64,000 bases of DNA from Verrucomicrobiia bacterium. GTDB taxonomy: Bacteria; Verrucomicrobiota; Verrucomicrobiia; Verrucomicrobiales; DEV007. A program made the position numbers and the translations under genes. The stretch covers positions 496,001-560,000 of the forward strand of contig JAUICH010000001.1 in assembly GCA_030427505.1 (NCBI GenBank), given 5' to 3'. Positions 52,391-58,994 of the stretch are shown here, in pieces; position 1 is the first letter of the stretch, and each line of letters opens with the position of its first letter. The notes under the pieces are model-generated. The model was not told where the DNA came from. It did no database searches and saw only the letters and a list, made by a program, of their open reading frames with translations.

Positions 52391-52574
52391 TCAGGTCGAC
52401 GTGAGTAGAGACTGATCCTCTTCGGTCGTCTCGATAGGGAGGGGAATGTCCCGCAAAGGCCCCCTTCGAATGACAAGGGCGTTGTCCGCCTGGCGAGCCA
52501 GGATGATGTGAACTCGCGAGGGAAACTTTCGCGACATGGAAGGATAGCGGGTGAGTCCGTTGCTTGCTACTCAT
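52391..52574 (-). pseudogene. Frameshifted and truncated gene fragment
   Basis: Starting at ATG 52574 the frame reads MSSKQRTHPLSFHV; one base later the frame beginning at ATG 52537 reads MSRKFPSRVHIILARQADNA followed by LVIRRGP and stops at 52391 after 48 residues. Joined, they resemble the N-terminus of a widespread uncharacterised family that I recall starting RTHPLSRKLPSRVHVLLAR and continuing with VVIRRGP; the remaining part of the family is missing. A one-base deletion near 52541 plus loss of the 3' part would explain this. The first ATG overlaps the end of the gene at 52567. The family match is from memory. Confidence 0.4.
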
Positions 52575-53214
52575 GATAATAAGCCCAATCGGCGATAGGC
52601 TCATACCAGCCACTTTCCCCACGCTCAGGATAGTTCTGGAGCGGGTAGTACATGAAGCGGTCGAAGCCTCCATTGAAACAGTACACGTTCAGCATCCAGG
52701 GGTTGTCATCCCATCGCCGCATGTCTTCGCCGGTGGTGTAGTGGTACTTGGAATAAGCCATCATGCCGGTCTTGGGAATGGCTTCGAGGTATTCCGGCAC
52801 CAGGGCTTCCAAGGTTTCGGGCGGACTTCCGTGGTGATCTTCCGTATAGGCTGTGACGGCCTCGACCAAGGGTTTGCTCCGGATCGCCAATTGTTCGAAT
52901 GCCTGGTGCCGGATTTTCTCACTAAGAATCGTTCCGGCCAGAGATGCCGGTACGGTGGCCAAACATAACAACAGCCATGCGAAAGCGCTTTTTCGGCGGC
53001 GCTTTGAAAGCAGGAACCAAGGCAAGACCAGGATCCCGAAAATCGCGGCCACGGTCATGGCCGCATAGAAATGTTCAATAAAGAAGGCAAACCCGGTTCC
53101 GATTGGTGCTACCTGGAGATAGGCTCCAATGGCCATCAAGAAGGGGCATGCAATTACCCACGGCCATAATTTTCTGGTTCCTGGATGCCGGAAAAAGTTG
53201 AGGAGATCTTTCAT
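52567..53214 (-). CDS. Hypothetical membrane protein
   Basis: This 215-residue protein has three hydrophobic segments (WPWVIACPFLMAIGAYL, AMTVAAIFGILVLPWFLL, FAWLLLCLATVPASLAG) and a soluble C-terminal domain rich in Tyr/Trp (VTAYTEDHHGSPPETLEALV, YLEAIPKTGMMAYSKYHY, MYYPLQNYPERGESGWYEP). The AYTEDHHGSPPETLEAL helix recalls sequences that follow the helix of pilin-like proteins, but there is no prepilin start. No named family. The downstream pseudogene start overlaps its stop. Confidence 0.55.
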   Translation of the reverse strand: MKDLLNFFRHPGTRKLWPWVIACPFLMAIGAYLQVAPIGTGFAFFIEHFYAAMTVAAIFGILVLPWFLLSKRRRKSAFAWLLLCLATVPASLAGTILSEKIRHQAFEQLAIRSKPLVEAVTAYTEDHHGSPPETLEALVPEYLEAIPKTGMMAYSKYHYTTGEDMRRWDDNPWMLNVYCFNGGFDRFMYYPLQNYPERGESGWYEPIADWAYYHE

Positions 53215-53312
53215 CCCTGGATTTGAGGGGGGCGAACAAAGAACAGCTTAGCATCGAGCCGCAAGCGGATTCAATTCCGCAGAGGCACTTGCCGGACGAC
53301 GCTCTTCGGCCC

Positions 53313-54146
53313 CTAACTTTCCAGCTCTTTCTCCAGCGGCGCCGCGTATCCGTTGCTGGAACTCTCGAGACCACCGCCTAGGTCCAGGTAGTCCGTCGTG
53401 GTCATCATGCGGCTGGCGAGGTCCAGGTCCAGTTTGGCTTCCACGGGTTTGGCGCGGATGGCGGCGGAGTCCGCGGCCAGGTCGAATTGCGCTTCGATCC
53501 GGCCCAGGTCGGAATCGATTTCTTCCAGGGATTGGGTGCGCTTTCCAAACAGGGCTAGCCGTTTTCGGAGCAGTTCCAGGGTGGCGGCTTTGCTTTCGCG
53601 GATGGATTCGCTGGTTTCCGGCGGATCGTCCGCGATGTCGGCTTCCAACTCCGCGATGCGGGTGGTGAGAGCGGCGGCCTGAGCCTCCGAATCGGGTGCC
53701 GTGAGGTGCTGGCGGGCGATGAGCAGCTTTAGGAATACGGTTTCGAGCACCCGGAGATTGGCGAGGTTGTCCTCCGCCACCGGGTCGCCCTGGGCAAAGG
53801 TTCCGTAGTAGCCTGAAACTTTGTCCAGTTTAGAAGTTAGCAAAGCGTGGCGTTCCTGATTGGGGAGAGTCAACTGGTGGATCAAGTCCTGGCGGGCGGC
53901 GTCTTTGCTCTCCTGATCGTTCCAGGCTTCCTGAGCGTCCACCAGCCGGCGGAAACGTCTCGAGCCCACCATGGCCCAGAGAAAGGCCGTTTCCGCGCCC
54001 AGCCCCAGGAGCCAAAACGCGGGGTGCCCGAAGCCCAGCAGCACCACCACCGCCACGGCCATGAGGTTCACCGGCATGTCGCCGAGCAGGGGAATGCGTT
54101 CGCGGACGAAAAAGGCGGCCCGGAGATAACGGAGAAATCGGTTCAC
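53313..54146 (-). CDS. Membrane-anchored coiled-coil protein of the VWA/binding-protein cluster
   Basis: This 277-residue protein has two membrane helices (LMAVAVVVLLGFGHPAFWLL, AETAFLWAMVGSRR region) followed by a long charged helical part (about 85-250) with heptad-like spacing, then a short tail. I recognise no family. The GTG at 54146 is the likely start; it lies only 4 bases beyond the end of the inverted-repeat element that fills the gap to the binding-protein gene, while the frame's first start (TTG, 54236) would lie inside that element. Same strand and order suggest it works with the two binding proteins. Confidence 0.6.
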   Translation of the reverse strand: MNRFLRYLRAAFFVRERIPLLGDMPVNLMAVAVVVLLGFGHPAFWLLGLGAETAFLWAMVGSRRFRRLVDAQEAWNDQESKDAARQDLIHQLTLPNQERHALLTSKLDKVSGYYGTFAQGDPVAEDNLANLRVLETVFLKLLIARQHLTAPDSEAQAAALTTRIAELEADIADDPPETSESIRESKAATLELLRKRLALFGKRTQSLEEIDSDLGRIEAQFDLAADSAAIRAKPVEAKLDLDLASRMMTTTDYLDLGGGLESSSNGYAAPLEKELES

Positions 54147-54149
54147 GCT

Positions 54150-54364
54150 AGGGTGTATGGACAAATTGGCGGACGGCCCGGCGCGAGACCATTTTTCGGC
54201 TGGCAAGGCGCGCCGGGCGCCGTTGGGTGATCCCAATAGAGGGAGGCGGAACGCAGCCAGGCGGAAAATGGGCCGCGTCCTTGGAAAATTCGCCGCTTGC
54301 GGCGCTGTTCCGATAACCTCTTTTCATCCCATCCGGGCCGTTTGGGGATTTGTCCATACGCCCT
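54150..54364. mobile_element. MITE-like element with 32-bp inverted ends
   Basis: The 32 bases at 54150-54181 (AGGG-x-GTATGGACAAAT...ACGGCCCGG) recur inverted at 54333-54364 with 26 matches. The 215-base interior has no transposase and no conserved frame. The element occupies almost the whole gap between two cluster genes (ends 5 bases from one stop and 4 bases from the next start). I see no clear target-site duplication, so a non-mobile structured leader is the alternative. Confidence 0.5.
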
Positions 54365-54369
54365 GGTGT

Positions 54370-55614
54370 TTACGGTGAACTGCGAATGCGCTGCCAGCCA
54401 GTCAAAAGGTTGTTGATGGCTTCGGCTTTCGGCGGTTCGGCGATGGAAGTGAGATCGATTTGCAGGCCGTATTTCTCATACAGCGTAAAAGGACTGTCCG
54501 GGCCCTTCACCGGCACCGCCGGGTTTCCGGGGCGGAAGCCATGGACCAGGGACTGGGCCTGCACCGGCTCGCTCATCAGGAATTCCAGGAAGGTCTCCGC
54601 CGCTTTCCGCTCGTCTTTGGAAGTCCATTCCGCGTCGATGATGTAGTAGGGGTTGTCGTTCCAGAGATTGATCGCGGGATAGACGACTTGCAGCGAGCCC
54701 CACCGGCCCTCGGCGTTCTTCAGATAGTCGATGGCGACGTTCTCATACACAAAAATGGCGTCGAACGAAGCGGGGCCTTTCAGCACCATGTCTCGCATCA
54801 TGTTTCCGGTGGAATTGGAGAGACCGGTCACGGCGCCTTCGATTTTGCGGAGCCACTGCTGGAAACCCGCATCCACGATGTCGGCCAGTTCCAGTGGGCG
54901 GGTCTTATGATGGTAGTGCTGCGCCATCAGGGCCAGGGAGAGGAGACCGCTGTTGGATTCGTTTGGATTGGTGTGTCCGAACTTGAAGAAACCCCACTCC
55001 GGCTTGTTGGCGATGGTGCCCCAGCCGCCCGGCTCGTGAAGGGCTTCGCCAATGGCGTCAAAGTTCACCTCGGGGTATTTGGTGGCGAAGGCATCGTAGC
55101 GCTCTTTCCAGAATACGAAGACCATGGGCGTCAGGGCCAGGGCTTCCTCGCGGGCGATGGGATTGCCGCCGCCGTATTTGAGTTGCCATTCGTCCACGAA
55201 GACATTGCGATAGGCGGAGCTGGCCGGGCTCCAGACGTGAATCTTTTCGGTGCCGTCGATGGTGGCGCGAGCGCCTTCCAGCGAACCCATCGGAATCAGT
55301 TCGATGGCGATCTTGCCGCCGTCCTTGGTCTTGGAAAACTCACCCACCGCCCACTGCAGCCAGCGTTTCTTTTCCGTGCCGTAGGCCATGCGCACGGTGA
55401 TCTGCTTACCGGAACTGGAAGTCCCGGAGGAGGAAGAAACCGAGCCGGAGGCGGAGGACGAAGTCCCCGAGCCGCTACCCGCGCCAGGATCGCCAGAGCC
55501 GGAGCGGCCCTTGAACAAATAGAAAGCTCCGGCAGCGCAGAGAGCCATGAACAGAAAGAGAATCAGTTTACCCAGGAAAGTCAGTCCCGGTCCGTCGTCT
55601 TTGGGATTCGCCAT
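54370..55614 (-). CDS. Membrane-anchored solute-binding protein
   Basis: This 414-residue protein starts with one membrane helix (LTFLGKLILFLFMALCAAGAF, about 11-31), a Gly/Ser linker of about 35 residues, then a type-2 periplasmic binding fold of the SBP_bac_11 kind: ITVRMAYGTEKKRWLQWAV, ALALTPMVFVFWKERYDAF, FKFGHTNPNESNSGLLSLAL, FDAIFVYENVAIDYL, AAETFLEFLMSEPVQ. It is an evident paralogue of the binding part of the neighbouring VWA protein. Ligand unknown; no transporter permease or ATPase is in the cluster. Confidence 0.75.
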   Translation of the reverse strand: MANPKDDGPGLTFLGKLILFLFMALCAAGAFYLFKGRSGSGDPGAGSGSGTSSSASGSVSSSSGTSSSGKQITVRMAYGTEKKRWLQWAVGEFSKTKDGGKIAIELIPMGSLEGARATIDGTEKIHVWSPASSAYRNVFVDEWQLKYGGGNPIAREEALALTPMVFVFWKERYDAFATKYPEVNFDAIGEALHEPGGWGTIANKPEWGFFKFGHTNPNESNSGLLSLALMAQHYHHKTRPLELADIVDAGFQQWLRKIEGAVTGLSNSTGNMMRDMVLKGPASFDAIFVYENVAIDYLKNAEGRWGSLQVVYPAINLWNDNPYYIIDAEWTSKDERKAAETFLEFLMSEPVQAQSLVHGFRPGNPAVPVKGPDSPFTLYEKYGLQIDLTSIAEPPKAEAINNLLTGWQRIRSSP

Positions 55615-55652
55615 AAGTCAGGAGTCGATGAAAATGGGTTCGCGCCGGGATC

Positions 55653-57356
55653 CTAGAAGAACGTGGAAATCTCCTTAAAGACCTCGTCGATGTTTTGGGG
55701 CGTGCCCTTGAAATATTTGCCCCGGGTCACGTCCGCGATCTTTTCCAGGACGTCAGCCCGGGCGCCGCTGCCGTAGCCGATGGTGAAGATGCGGATGCCG
55801 CCGGTTTCAGAAGAGGCGGAAATCTGCTGCAGCATGGCGTCCAGGGTCGCTTGGCTGTGTTCGTCCGCGCCGTCAGACAGCACCACGATGGCGGTGATCT
55901 TCTTGGGCTGAGGATTGGCGGTCAGCTCCGCGTGTGCCTGGATGACCGCGTCGTAGAGAGCCGTGCCCCCGTTGGGATACAGCGTGCCCAGTTGCTTGAG
56001 AAACTCAGAACGATTCGCGCCCACCGGCTGGTTCTTGCCCAGCCAGATGGCCTCGTGGTTAAACGGAACCAAGGAAAACTGGTCGTTCTCTCCCAGTAAA
56101 TTAATTAGCTGCCGGGCGCCGTTCTTGGCGTTTTCCATCTTGCTCTCCTGTTTCATGGAGCCAGAGGTATCCAGCACCAGAGCCACGTTGGCCTTCTTTT
56201 TGCGCAACCGCCACAGGTCCTGAATGGCCTGCATTACGGGCACCTCAGGCACTTCCAGGGTGGTCTGCGGTTGGGCGGGGTCCACGCCGTGCGCCGCGTC
56301 AAAGGGCGCACCCAGGGCGAGTGAAACGTCCGCGGGCCGGAACCCGAAATCCTTGGCCCGTTCTTGCTGCGGGGTGTCCGTCAGGAAGGCAATGTACTGT
56401 TCCGCGGCGTCCCGGTGGTCCGCCGTGACCCAGTCGCGGTCCACGATGCCCACCGGATGGTCGGAGTAGAAAGTGCCTTCCTTCGGATAAATGGCGACCA
56501 CGGGGAAGGGCAGGTTCTCTTTCCCGTAGCTTTCGATGACCATGTTTTCGTATAGCACCGAAGCGCTCAGGTATTCCGGGCCGTTGTCGAACATCTTGCG
56601 CCCGAAGAAGCCGGTGGAGCGGCCGTAGTGAACGATGGCACTTTCGATTTCCTCCAGGTAGTCGCCCGTGGCCGGGGCCTGGACATCAGCCAGGGTCAGG
56701 TTCTGCACCTTCCCCGTGGCGGCGTAGGTTTCAGCAAAGAGGGAAATGATGCCGCTGTTCGAGTACTCCGGGTGCGTGTGGCCAAAGCGGAAGCGGCCCC
56801 ACTGGGGGAAACCCTTTCCCGCCCAGCCGGCGTCGTCCAGGGCCATGGTGTGTACGTCCGCCCAGCCCAGCGGCCGGTTCGGCCAGCCCAGGGCTTCGGC
56901 CATGGGTTTCCACATGGCGATGACGACGGGCGAGAGCACCAGGTTCTCCGTATTGCCCACGAGGTTTCTCCCCAGCCGGGCCTGGGACTCCGCGTTGCCC
57001 AGCTTGATAAAGGCTTCGGAGGCCGGGCTCACCAGATGGGTTTCCCGCTTTCCTTCCAGGATTTCCTCCACGCACTCGCCCGAGCCCATGGGGATGTGTT
57101 CGACGAAAATTTTCTTCCCGGAGGCGGTCTTGTGCTTGGCCCGGTTAAATTCCGCGGTCAGCGCGTCGATCCATTTTTCCTTTTCCGACCCCGCCGTGAA
57201 GACCAGGCGGAGAGTGTCCGGTCCGGAGGGGGGCGCCGCTCCGCCGGAACCTCCGTTACTTTGAGAATCCGGGCCGGGAGACTGGCTGTCACCACAACCG
57301 GTCAGGCACAGCGCCAAGGTGGCCAGAAGGAGGAGGAATTTTTTCATCGCGTTCAT
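55653..57356 (-). CDS. Lipoprotein: solute-binding domain fused to a VWA domain
   Basis: This 567-residue protein has a lipoprotein signal (lipobox LTGC, cysteine 21), a binding domain (LRLVFTAGSEKEKWIDALTA, LVSPASEAF, FRFGHTHPEYSNSGIISLF, LYENMVIESYGKENLPFP) and a C-terminal VWA domain with a complete MIDAS: DTSGSM near 393, GGTALYD, and SDGADEH near 492. The VWA should bind a metal and a partner protein. The gene comes first in a leftward cluster, 38 bases before the membrane-anchored paralogue. I chose the ATG at 57356; the frame extends upstream without a signal. Confidence 0.78.
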   Translation of the reverse strand: MNAMKKFLLLLATLALCLTGCGDSQSPGPDSQSNGGSGGAAPPSGPDTLRLVFTAGSEKEKWIDALTAEFNRAKHKTASGKKIFVEHIPMGSGECVEEILEGKRETHLVSPASEAFIKLGNAESQARLGRNLVGNTENLVLSPVVIAMWKPMAEALGWPNRPLGWADVHTMALDDAGWAGKGFPQWGRFRFGHTHPEYSNSGIISLFAETYAATGKVQNLTLADVQAPATGDYLEEIESAIVHYGRSTGFFGRKMFDNGPEYLSASVLYENMVIESYGKENLPFPVVAIYPKEGTFYSDHPVGIVDRDWVTADHRDAAEQYIAFLTDTPQQERAKDFGFRPADVSLALGAPFDAAHGVDPAQPQTTLEVPEVPVMQAIQDLWRLRKKKANVALVLDTSGSMKQESKMENAKNGARQLINLLGENDQFSLVPFNHEAIWLGKNQPVGANRSEFLKQLGTLYPNGGTALYDAVIQAHAELTANPQPKKITAIVVLSDGADEHSQATLDAMLQQISASSETGGIRIFTIGYGSGARADVLEKIADVTRGKYFKGTPQNIDEVFKEISTFF

Positions 57357-57555
57357 GATGGGGAGGCGGAAAGAAGGTGTCGATTGCACACAAGGGCCTG
57401 TTTTGTAATGCCAGGAAATTGGGCGGTTTCTGGGATCGGTGGACTCAGAGGCGCTCTCTTGAGACGGCTGATTGGCGAGATTTCCCTTGTCCGGTCTCAT
57501 GCGTTCCGATAAGCCCTCTCAGGAAAGCCCCGTGGCCGAAGTTCGGTCATTGATT

Positions 57556-57581
57556 GGCAATTTCTTATACAAGAAATTGCC
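57556..57581. promoter_or_regulatory. 26-bp perfect dyad, operator or hairpin
   Basis: GGCAATTTCTT and its exact reverse complement AAGAAATTGCC flank ATAC. The stem of 11 pairs is long enough for a repressor dimer site or an RNA hairpin; the absence of a T run and the position about 75 bases before the next start favour an operator. Confidence 0.45.
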
Positions 57582-57601
57582 CAAGTCAGCGGCGTTGTGT
57601 G

Positions 57602-57617
57602 GTGACGGAACTGTCAC
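57602..57617. promoter_or_regulatory. GTGAC-N6-GTCAC dyad, CRP-like
   Basis: GTGAC and GTCAC are inverted around 6 bases about 40 bases before the sialidase-like start. The layout resembles a CRP/FNR-type half-site pair, although the family of the regulator cannot be read from the site. Confidence 0.35.
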
Positions 57618-57656
57618 ATTTCGATCTCATCTATTCCTGACAAATCTCCTGGAGAC

Positions 57657-58994
57657 ATGCTCTACGAAACTTTCGGAGGCTTTCGACGGCTTCTTTTGAC
57701 TTCTCTTGTTTTCTTCAGTGGATGGTCATCGGAAAAGGTCAGGGGCGGGGAGGCATCCTCCAAATTACCAGGGGGAGCTCCGCTGGATGAATACGGCGCT
57801 CAGCTTCTCGGCGCTTCTCCTGAATTCATGGAGAGGCTTCTCGAAGGGGAACAGGCTGGCTTGATCGAACTCAAAGCCGTCAACCTTCCCCGGGAAGTAA
57901 GAAACGACTGCAATCACTTCGGCTGGCCCATCGCGACGATGGCGGGCGAAACCTTGGTGGTCATGCACCGGCGCATTCCCGGACACAACAAGAACGGCGC
58001 GGGAAAGCCGGACCCATCCATGTCTTATGGCATTGTCCTTCGCAGCGAGGATCATGGGAAGACCTGGTCTGAGCCGTATGACTTACGCGACTGCATGAAG
58101 CCGGAAGACCGGAACCGGGGCGGCATCGTTCCCTTGTCGCACCGGCGGAAGTTCGATCCTGAAAATCACTCTTCTGAAGGTTACAAGGTCCATCTTCACT
58201 CCATCGGCACCGCGAAAGATGGAGCCGTGGTGGCGATCAACAATCACGGGGTGTTTCGCTCCGAAGATGAAGGCCGGACCTGGAAGCATTTTCCGGCCGC
58301 GTTGCGGGACGATACCTTTCATCACCAGATCGTGAATCTGGGCCCGCGCATTCTGGAGGATCCCACGCGGGGCCTGTTGGTCTTTGGCAATTGGTTTGGT
58401 GAGGCGGAAGGCTACCACACCCTGCACAACCAGTTTGTCGCGCTGTGTTCGCCTGACGGTGGGGCGACTTGGGAAGTAGAGGAATACCCGGTGGGTTTTC
58501 CGCAATACGAGCCGGCAGCGCTGTATCAAGACGGCCGCTATCTTTTCGTGACGCGGGACCAAACTGAAGTCCGGGCCCACAAGCAAATGACGTGGCAACC
58601 GGGGAAACCGCCGAAGATCACGAGTACCAACCTCGAAAACCCTCGCTACGTCGATACGGTGGATTTCTCCTTTAATCCGGTCACGAAACGTTTCGAGATC
58701 GTCCGTTCCGAGCGCTACCACATGGAACTATGGCTGTGGAGCTTGGACCCCGCCGATTGGGAAACCGGACATTGGCGCCGCGAGTGCCGCCTTCTTGCCC
58801 GGAATGGAAAGTTCTACCAGGACGCCGACGGTTTTCACCCCGCCGCGGCGGTCATCGATGAGGCCCGTGGCGTGCAGCACCTTTTTATCTACACCGGCCA
58901 TCCCAATGGACCTGCCGGAGTCTTCCGGATCACGCGGACTTTGGACACGGAAAGCCTGCGGAAATTCATGGAACGGGAAGAGATCGTGAACTAG
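57657..58994 (+). CDS. Exported sialidase-like (BNR/Asp-box) protein
   Basis: This 445-residue protein has a signal-like start (LLLTSLVFFSGWSSEK) and a six-bladed propeller type sequence with three Asp boxes: SEDHGKTW, SEDEGRTW and SPDGGATW. The first arginines expected of sialidases may lie in VVMHRRIPG and near it. It resembles the exo-alpha-sialidase/BNR repeat superfamily, which in marine bacteria includes enzymes on glycans other than sialic acid. The start at 57657 is preceded by GGAG four bases away. The gene stands alone behind a region with two operator-like dyads. Confidence 0.7.
   Translation: MLYETFGGFRRLLLTSLVFFSGWSSEKVRGGEASSKLPGGAPLDEYGAQLLGASPEFMERLLEGEQAGLIELKAVNLPREVRNDCNHFGWPIATMAGETLVVMHRRIPGHNKNGAGKPDPSMSYGIVLRSEDHGKTWSEPYDLRDCMKPEDRNRGGIVPLSHRRKFDPENHSSEGYKVHLHSIGTAKDGAVVAINNHGVFRSEDEGRTWKHFPAALRDDTFHHQIVNLGPRILEDPTRGLLVFGNWFGEAEGYHTLHNQFVALCSPDGGATWEVEEYPVGFPQYEPAALYQDGRYLFVTRDQTEVRAHKQMTWQPGKPPKITSTNLENPRYVDTVDFSFNPVTKRFEIVRSERYHMELWLWSLDPADWETGHWRRECRLLARNGKFYQDADGFHPAAAVIDEARGVQHLFIYTGHPNGPAGVFRITRTLDTESLRKFMEREEIVN

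Follow-up and report, generated by a model that had tools for sequence, protein, structure and literature searches.

A three-gene module of two solute-binding proteins and a membrane hairpin protein in a Verrucomicrobiia genome, and its possible coupling to PspA

Introduction

Outside a few model systems, it is an open question which signals set the time and place of action of PspA-type membrane-remodelling proteins. According to the accessible part of one article, PspA adjoins a protein with two AAA+ domains, the N-terminal one being inactive, and PspA or TM-Snf7 homologues occur with AAA+ proteins, an ATP-binding cassette (ABC) ATPase, a permease and a solute/peptidoglycan-binding protein, PBPB-OmpA; PspM (Rv2743c), a membrane protein with two transmembrane (TM) segments, is encoded beside PspA in the actinobacterial psp operon (Ravi et al., 2024, PMC11237479). 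In the available parts of two other articles, MoxR AAA+/von Willebrand factor type A (VWA) modules associate a VWA protein with AAA+ ATPases in conserved neighbourhoods (PMC5898192), and archaeal Meth_adaptin loci of the endosomal sorting complex required for transport (ESCRT) include a ProX substrate-binding protein (PMC11188069). Here we report on the window, a stretch of 64,000 nucleotides (G000:C6:496001-560000) of the 6.4-Mb genome of a Verrucomicrobiia bacterium, and on three co-directional minus-strand genes in it: P1, encoding a lipoprotein with a solute-binding protein (SBP) domain fused to a VWA domain; P2, an anchored SBP; and P3, a predicted membrane hairpin protein whose family is called CC below. 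In part of the relatives a PspA gene lies between P2 and CC, and we tentatively propose that the module couples ligand sensing to PspA.

The PspA/AAA+ systems of PMC11237479 share with our loci the pairing of PspA with an AAA ATPase. Three myxobacterial loci treated below (L191 and its like) resemble the ABC operon with PBPB-OmpA and are probably of the same kind, by analogy with the accessible part of that article, whose TM-Snf7 might be CC, an as yet unconfirmed candidate identity. The P1-P2-CC module differs from the systems described there, having no constant ABC transporter, a VWA-fused SBP, and PspA adjacent in a minority only. PspM, by its description, recalls CC in being a two-TM membrane protein encoded beside PspA, but the same part of the article reports it in Actinobacteria only. 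Compared with the MoxR/VWA modules, as far as PMC5898192 was available, the AAA ATPase here matches PF00004 and is adjacent in 4/37 loci, and the VWA domain is SBP-fused and, judging by the lipobox, extracytoplasmic. The Meth_adaptin loci offer a possible parallel in having an SBP gene within an ESCRT-type locus, but they involve archaeal Vps4/ESCRT and a glycine-betaine-type SBP, and no VWA was found in the available text (PMC11188069). The type II SBPs of ABC importers (1sbp, FbpA, MctA) resemble the module in the fold of P2 and in the SBP_bac_11 assignment of P1 and P2, whereas P2 has about 9-17% identity to such proteins (among the matches listed), and the module has no adjoining permease or ATPase, a TM anchor in P2 and a VWA domain in P1. 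No account of an SBP-VWA/SBP/CC module was found among the literature matches listed, subscription papers and supplements lying outside that scope. The main text of PMC11237479, as far as it was available, makes no mention of vWA, SBP, substrate-binding, NMT1 or Myxo, and the accessible text of PMC9239133 none of vWA, von Willebrand, substrate-binding, Verrucomicrobi or solute.

Data and Scope

Labels of the form L### and G### denote the loci and genomes of this analysis, G000 being the host genome of the window. A P1 scan of named genomes (query of 566 aa, without the initial Met) gave 61 loci, of which L063, L064 and L080 were dropped as duplicate places. The 58 remaining comprise 37 loci in which P1 is flanked by 4 kb or more on each side, 18 lying nearer a contig end, and three without a sorted P1 open reading frame (ORF; L107, L111, L119). 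The P3 queries had 307 aa (an over-long ORF), then 279 and 277 aa. Genes in the loci were called mechanically, being chosen by conservation or by GC content at third codon positions (GC3), and some neighbours are wrong or missed; the group names of relatives come from database records, and some look mis-assigned. The nearest named relatives are recorded as Verrucomicrobia (L063, L065).

The Three Proteins

A preliminary description had placed three leftward genes here, and their coordinates and minus strand were confirmed (Table 1). Its picture of P1 as a lipoprotein carrying a binding domain and a VWA domain with a complete metal ion-dependent adhesion site (MIDAS) is borne out by the lipobox (LTGC, then Gly), by Pfam and by residue conservation. 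Both binding domains, for which a profile search had been suggested, exceed the SBP_bac_11 cut-off of 25 bits (P1, E = 2.6e-13, 50.7 bits; P2, 4.5e-12, 46.7 bits), and the VWA part of P1 scores 52.3 bits against a cut-off of 23.8 (1e-13). Across 61 P1 sequences, the MIDAS residues D444, S446, S448 and T513 are conserved at 100% and D543 at 98% (numbering of the 615-aa ORF), and a regular expression recognized a lipobox-like site in 48/62 P1 ORFs with untrimmed starts.

The model of P2 (mean pLDDT 90.4, 32 sequences) has as its best Foldseek match the sulfate-binding protein 1sbp (E = 1.4e-13, TM-score by target 0.70), further matches including ferric- and metal-citrate-binding proteins. P2 is thus modelled as a two-lobed type II SBP fold, SBP_bac_11 being assigned by sequence to P1 and by sequence and model to P2. 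Loop residues common to P1 and P2 (S111, P130, SN 220-221, ST 268-269 and YE 290-291 in P2 numbering) are 89-100% conserved. The shared motif had been given as FGHT-x-P-x-SNSG, which is wrong; it reads FGHT-x-P-x-x-SNSG, with two residues before SNSG.

The start of P3 common to its relatives is the GTG at 54146; a longer ORF with a TTG start, reaching 54236, extends into a repeat. Pfam gave nothing for P3 at E 0.1 or at E 5, nor did NCBIfam at E 0.1, and among 13 CC members the best Pfam match (0.00095, in one of them) points to no convincing family. Where the preliminary description had a two-helix coiled coil, the model (mean pLDDT 77.2, 13 sequences) instead has a short N-terminal helix, a hairpin of hydrophobic helices at about residues 26-38 and 43-61, and then five helices (63-91, 94-117, 122-148, 153-172 and 180-231). 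Both ends of the hairpin are suggested to be cytoplasmic, because basic residues flank it on both sides in many CCa proteins, according to a crude hydropathy scan in which the CCb proteins are mixed. Foldseek against PDB gave no match to the P3 model at E ≤ 0.001, the best being the BAR domain of APPL2 (E = 0.078), and the VIA-align matches were helical bundles of a generic kind, their Z of at most 10.2 lying within the range that the tool warns is common.

Homology of CC to ESCRT-III/PspA was considered and found no clear support, hhalign giving a probability of 0.2-1.5% for CC against PspA and Foldseek placing VIPP1 (7o3x) only at rank 50, with E = 1.9. A partner of the TelA/toxic-anion-resistance type was discarded, TelA being absent from the Pfam matches of CC. 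None of P1, P2 and P3 matched a PADLOC defence model at E 0.01. As a separate observation, in L055 (5428-8788, G037:C21) a CC homologue lies 14 bp behind an exporter-type ABC gene (ABC_membrane and ABC_tran).

Conservation and History of the Module

P2 is found near P1 in 33 of the 37 loci (all save L084, L085, L115 and L117) and CC in 27 (all save L074, L075, L081, L082, L084, L085, L086, L091, L115 and L117), and the co-occurrence of the three genes, which the preliminary description had proposed to survey, is accordingly conserved. The usual gene order is P1-P2-CC in Verrucomicrobiota and Acidobacteriota, P1-CC-P2 in Myxococcota and P2-P1-CC in Chloroflexota. In four loci of the Chloroflexus type (L109, 10606-12498; also L110, L114 and L122), P2-P1-CC runs on into genes of a histidine-kinase cluster and of a 119-aa cluster; in L109, Pfam shows a histidine kinase and a response-regulator receiver protein standing alone.

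In a quick tree of 100 P1 and P2 rows, from which ORFs of unusual length were excluded, the split between 40 rows on the side of P2 and 60 on that of P1 has SH-aLRT 100. A Myxococcota group and a Verrucomicrobiota/Acidobacteriota group recur on both sides; the Chloroflexota make up a single group among the P2 rows and several among the P1 rows, extra copies included. L107_P2b and L111_P2 were placed inside P1, the P1 of these two loci having been missed in ORF sorting. Since the two halves broadly repeat the same groups, one old duplication giving P1 and P2 probably preceded the spread of the module, and the kinship of the two binding domains, already proposed from their shared motif, is that of paralogues.

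The module is rare in the window's own phylum, where its spread is patchy. At E 1e-20 a P2 profile matched in 2/194 sampled genomes, counting the host genome, and a CC homologue was present in 7/57 near genomes, the host included. Among these 57, close three-gene sets occur in G000, G035, G037 and, divided between contigs, G023; the P1-P2-like pair of G018 (L062) is distant and has no CC.

Linkage of CC to PspA

PspA lies near P1 in 6/37 loci and an AAA ATPase in 4/37, as raw counts. Each of the six PspA genes (L066, L067, L068, L072, L073, L079) is flanked by P2 and CC, and the AAA gene follows CC in L066, L067, L068 and L073, a linkage that is new in this analysis. The PspA of L066 matches PF04012 (PspA_IM30, 5.4e-11) and the other five cluster with it; the AAA protein of the same locus matches PF00004 (4.8e-24) in its C-terminal half only, and the N-terminal half of the L134/L066-type protein may correspond to the inactive AAA domain reported in proteins of this kind. 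In the tree, L066, L072 (Granulicella aggregans), L073 and L079 form one clade and L067 and L068 are placed elsewhere. The window locus itself is without PspA; the same PspA type (1e-114, model c5) and an adjacent AAA gene (5e-235, model c6) are found on another contig of its genome (G000:C19, L134), with models built in this analysis. Against PADLOC, the AAA protein had weak matches to IetA models (about 1e-11) that cover its AAA part, and the L066 PspA aligned with coiled-coil segments of other models, no match being stronger than 5e-4. The PspA type was present in 13/14 examined genomes with a CCa-type module (G000, G023, G035, G037 and G241-G249; not G250). In G248, which has a CC gene beside P1-P2 (L069), a second CC gene lies directly beside PspA with no SBP (L146, 5513-7446, G248:C11).

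CC also accompanies PspA and an SBP of another family. In two myxobacterial loci, L153 and L154, PspA, an NMT1/THI5-type SBP with an N-terminal hydrophobic stretch, and CC stand in a row (NMT1 3.4e-10 and PspA 3.3e-18 in L153), which was not met in the literature searched. Their genomes, G251 and G252, are those of L094 (Pyxidicoccus) and L099 and thus also belong to the P1 locus set; an AAA relative lies about 7-13 kb from the row in both. A CC homologue occurs in 42/58 sampled genomes of the class of G251, with 45 matches, of which 42 loci were read (those of G288, G291 and G304 were excluded). Thirty-four of the 42 have PspA, NMT1 and CC in that order, PspA being often partial where the stretch ends and most of the loci being close relatives; two have NMT1 and CC, cut by a contig end (L158, L179), and three have PspA and CC with no NMT1 at E 1e-4 (L189, L190, L193). 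The last three (L191, L192, L197) associate an NMT1 SBP fused to OmpA, a permease, an ABC ATPase and CC (Pfam on L191 only). Upstream in these loci there is one more helical ORF, which has 234 aa in L192.

By profile comparison the CC groups form one superfamily. The window type matches the type of the PspA-NMT1 row at 99.2% (E 1e-19; c1-cm) and the Chloroflexota/Myxococcota P1-P2 type at 95.4% (c1-c347), and the row type matches the ABC-operon type at 99.7% (cm-co) and the Chloroflexota/Myxococcota type at 97.8% (c347-cm); coiled-coil composition can inflate such scores, and the CC alignment does span the hairpin.

Other Features of the Locus

The gap between P2 and P3 measures 223 bp, of which a repeat fills all but 4 bp. 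Its terminal inverted repeats of 20 bp start and end with CTAG and have the consensus CTAGGGTGTRTGGACAAATT with its complement, from an alignment of 23 copies. The host genome contains at least 42 copies or fragments longer than 100 bp, this one included, with 71-93% identity (40 of 214 first-look candidates scored), and among 28 other genomes only G008 holds relatives, which are partial. In the G035 orthologue (L063), P2 and P3 are 22 bp apart, provided that P3 begins with the corresponding GTG. The repeat looks like a miniature inverted-repeat transposable element (MITE) inserted in the operon, leaving P3 intact and replacing its upstream region, and it may influence expression of the module. 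Its single strand folds strongly (z -4.4), the terminal inverted repeats accounting for at least part of this. A consensus promoter scan over the window gave 7 matches against 11.6 expected and was uninformative, and Rfam returned nothing on 53000-58000 at E 1.

The ORF downstream of P3, 98 bp away, had no phmmer relative among the loci then in the set and is hence not counted in the module. Upstream of P1 and divergent from it lies a 445-aa ORF (57657-58994), presumably sialidase/neuraminidase-like, judging by eye.

Table 1. Positions of the module, of accompanying features and of related gene rows; positions are those of the window unless a locus is named.
Feature	Position	Strand	Description	Basis
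P1	55653..57356	-	567 aa, ATG at 57356; lipoprotein, SBP_bac_11 fused to VWA with complete MIDAS	Pfam, MIDAS conservation, lipobox
P2	54370..55614	-	414 aa; anchored SBP paralogue of P1, hydrophobic helix at about residues 13-36	Pfam, model, Foldseek, pairing with P1
P3/CC	53313..54146	-	277 aa, GTG start; predicted N-terminal TM hairpin and helical bundle	Alignment, model, profile links, neighbourhoods
Downstream ORF	52567..53214	-	215 aa, hydrophobic N-terminal part, co-directional	ORF list
MITE-like repeat	54148..54366	.	About 219 bp, terminal inverted repeats; in P2-P3 gap, not part of the module	
AAA protein	L134 7991-9757 (G000:C19)		Beside PspA	
PspA-NMT1-CC row	L153 14185-16986 (G251:C155); L154 11218-14033			
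SBP-OmpA/ABC/CC loci	L191 1340-5535; L192 2074-6346; L197 1238-5414			

Discussion

The reading that we favour, with a confidence somewhat short of even, is that of an SBP-gated membrane-stress or remodelling module, in which CC would act as transducer and ligand sensing across the envelope would be coupled to PspA. What speaks most for a coupling of SBPs to PspA through CC is, in our view, gene arrangement: an anchored SBP, CC and PspA recur together in two architectures, with different SBP families. A ligand-sensing complex, as the preliminary description had suggested, is a plausible hypothesis with partial support; the link to PspA and AAA lay outside what that description could reveal. 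P2 would be an SBP fixed in the inner membrane, P1 a lipoprotein with the same binding fold and a metal-dependent VWA interaction domain, and CC would be held in the inner membrane by its hairpin with the helical bundle in the cytoplasm. Ligand bound by P1 or P2, probably with contact through the VWA domain of P1, would change CC, which would then recruit or release PspA for remodelling of the ESCRT-III type with the partner AAA ATPase, if signalling runs in this direction. In the host genome of the window, the PspA-AAA pair is encoded on another contig. At a guess, from the nearest folds of P2, the ligand would be anion-like.

Several observations weigh against this proposal. Ten of the 37 loci are without CC and four without P2, PspA is adjacent in just six, four of them from one clade, and the PspA model of this analysis found no PspA in the P1-P2 loci of Myxococcota or Chloroflexota. 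No AAA relative was found at E 1e-30 in the genomes of L072 and L079, and that of L106 (G250) has a different PspA, with no c5 match, and an AAA relative at 31% only. Other CC homologues, in G037, G050, G053 and G056, adjoin various other genes with no constant partner. The PspA type is found in G012 and G003 without P1-P2, and the PspA-AAA pair in G012; the PspA type and the pair therefore have other work too, and presence of PspA in module genomes alone shows little.

In a broader form of the proposal, CC would be a general adaptor coupling interchangeable anchored SBPs (SBP_bac_11 with its VWA partner, NMT1, and NMT1-OmpA) to PspA/AAA remodelling, that is, a ligand-gated bacterial ESCRT-III, which we regard as conceivable and hold with about one chance in three.

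P1 and P2 might instead be orphan SBPs feeding a permease encoded elsewhere, with CC as a transporter-recruiting scaffold, an explanation that we give about one chance in five. The sulfate- and ferric/metal-citrate-binding proteins nearest to P2 in fold are in keeping with it, as are the CC homologues beside SBP-OmpA, permease and ABC ATPase in L191, L192 and L197 and behind the exporter-type ABC gene in L055. Against it, no constant permease or ATPase stands beside P1-P2 across loci recorded from six phyla, and both the anchor of P2 and the VWA domain of P1 are, as general knowledge, unusual in delivery proteins. The genes adjoining the module in the window include no ABC permease or ATPase, and the locus does not qualify as an ABC uptake system. 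A regular expression recognized an ABC ATPase-like ORF, at any position, in three of the 58 named loci (L069, L082, L084), and it never adjoins the module; in L082 it belongs to the co-directional run up to P1, with three genes between. Among the 134 flanking ORFs of the 37 loci, Pfam found three BPD_transp_1 permeases, all on the opposite strand in Chloroflexus-type loci (two in L114, one in L122), and three PBP_like_2, two of them traced to L084 and L074, these results being for the 25 of 111 families listed, outside which rarer ATPase matches could lie. The earlier view that permease and ATPase are lacking thus mostly stands for P1-P2, which has no constant ABC partner in the SBP_bac_11 loci, and fails for the CC family, which does adjoin such genes in other contexts (L191, L192, L197 and L055).

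Adhesion or assembly at the surface or in the periplasm, with the VWA-MIDAS binding a protein partner or a surface and the SBP folds serving as scaffolds instead of receptors, appears distinctly unlikely. The near-complete conservation of the MIDAS across the 61 sequences would suit such a function, and the VWA part of P1 resembles secreted VWA proteins (the marine sortase-target model of NCBIfam, 1.3e-17, far under that model's cut-off; ITIH4, 5.2e-6). The SBP loop motifs kept in both P1 and P2 would, however, be needless in a pure scaffold, and the link to cytoplasmic PspA and AAA would be left unexplained. That the module is the input arm of two-component or other transcriptional signalling and not of membrane remodelling is improbable, at about one chance in ten. 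The histidine-kinase and 119-aa cluster genes that continue L109, L110, L114 and L122 speak for it, but these four loci are a single group of close relatives, and no regulator is constant elsewhere (6 HATPase and 6 Response_reg in the 134 flanking ORFs, Chloroflexus included).

CC is a protein family without a Pfam or NCBIfam model, present in several phyla. A cassette of an anchored solute-binding protein, a hairpin protein and PspA, as we tentatively read these loci, ties SBPs to something beyond transport or chemotaxis, and it would give PspA-type remodelling a concrete, testable input signal.

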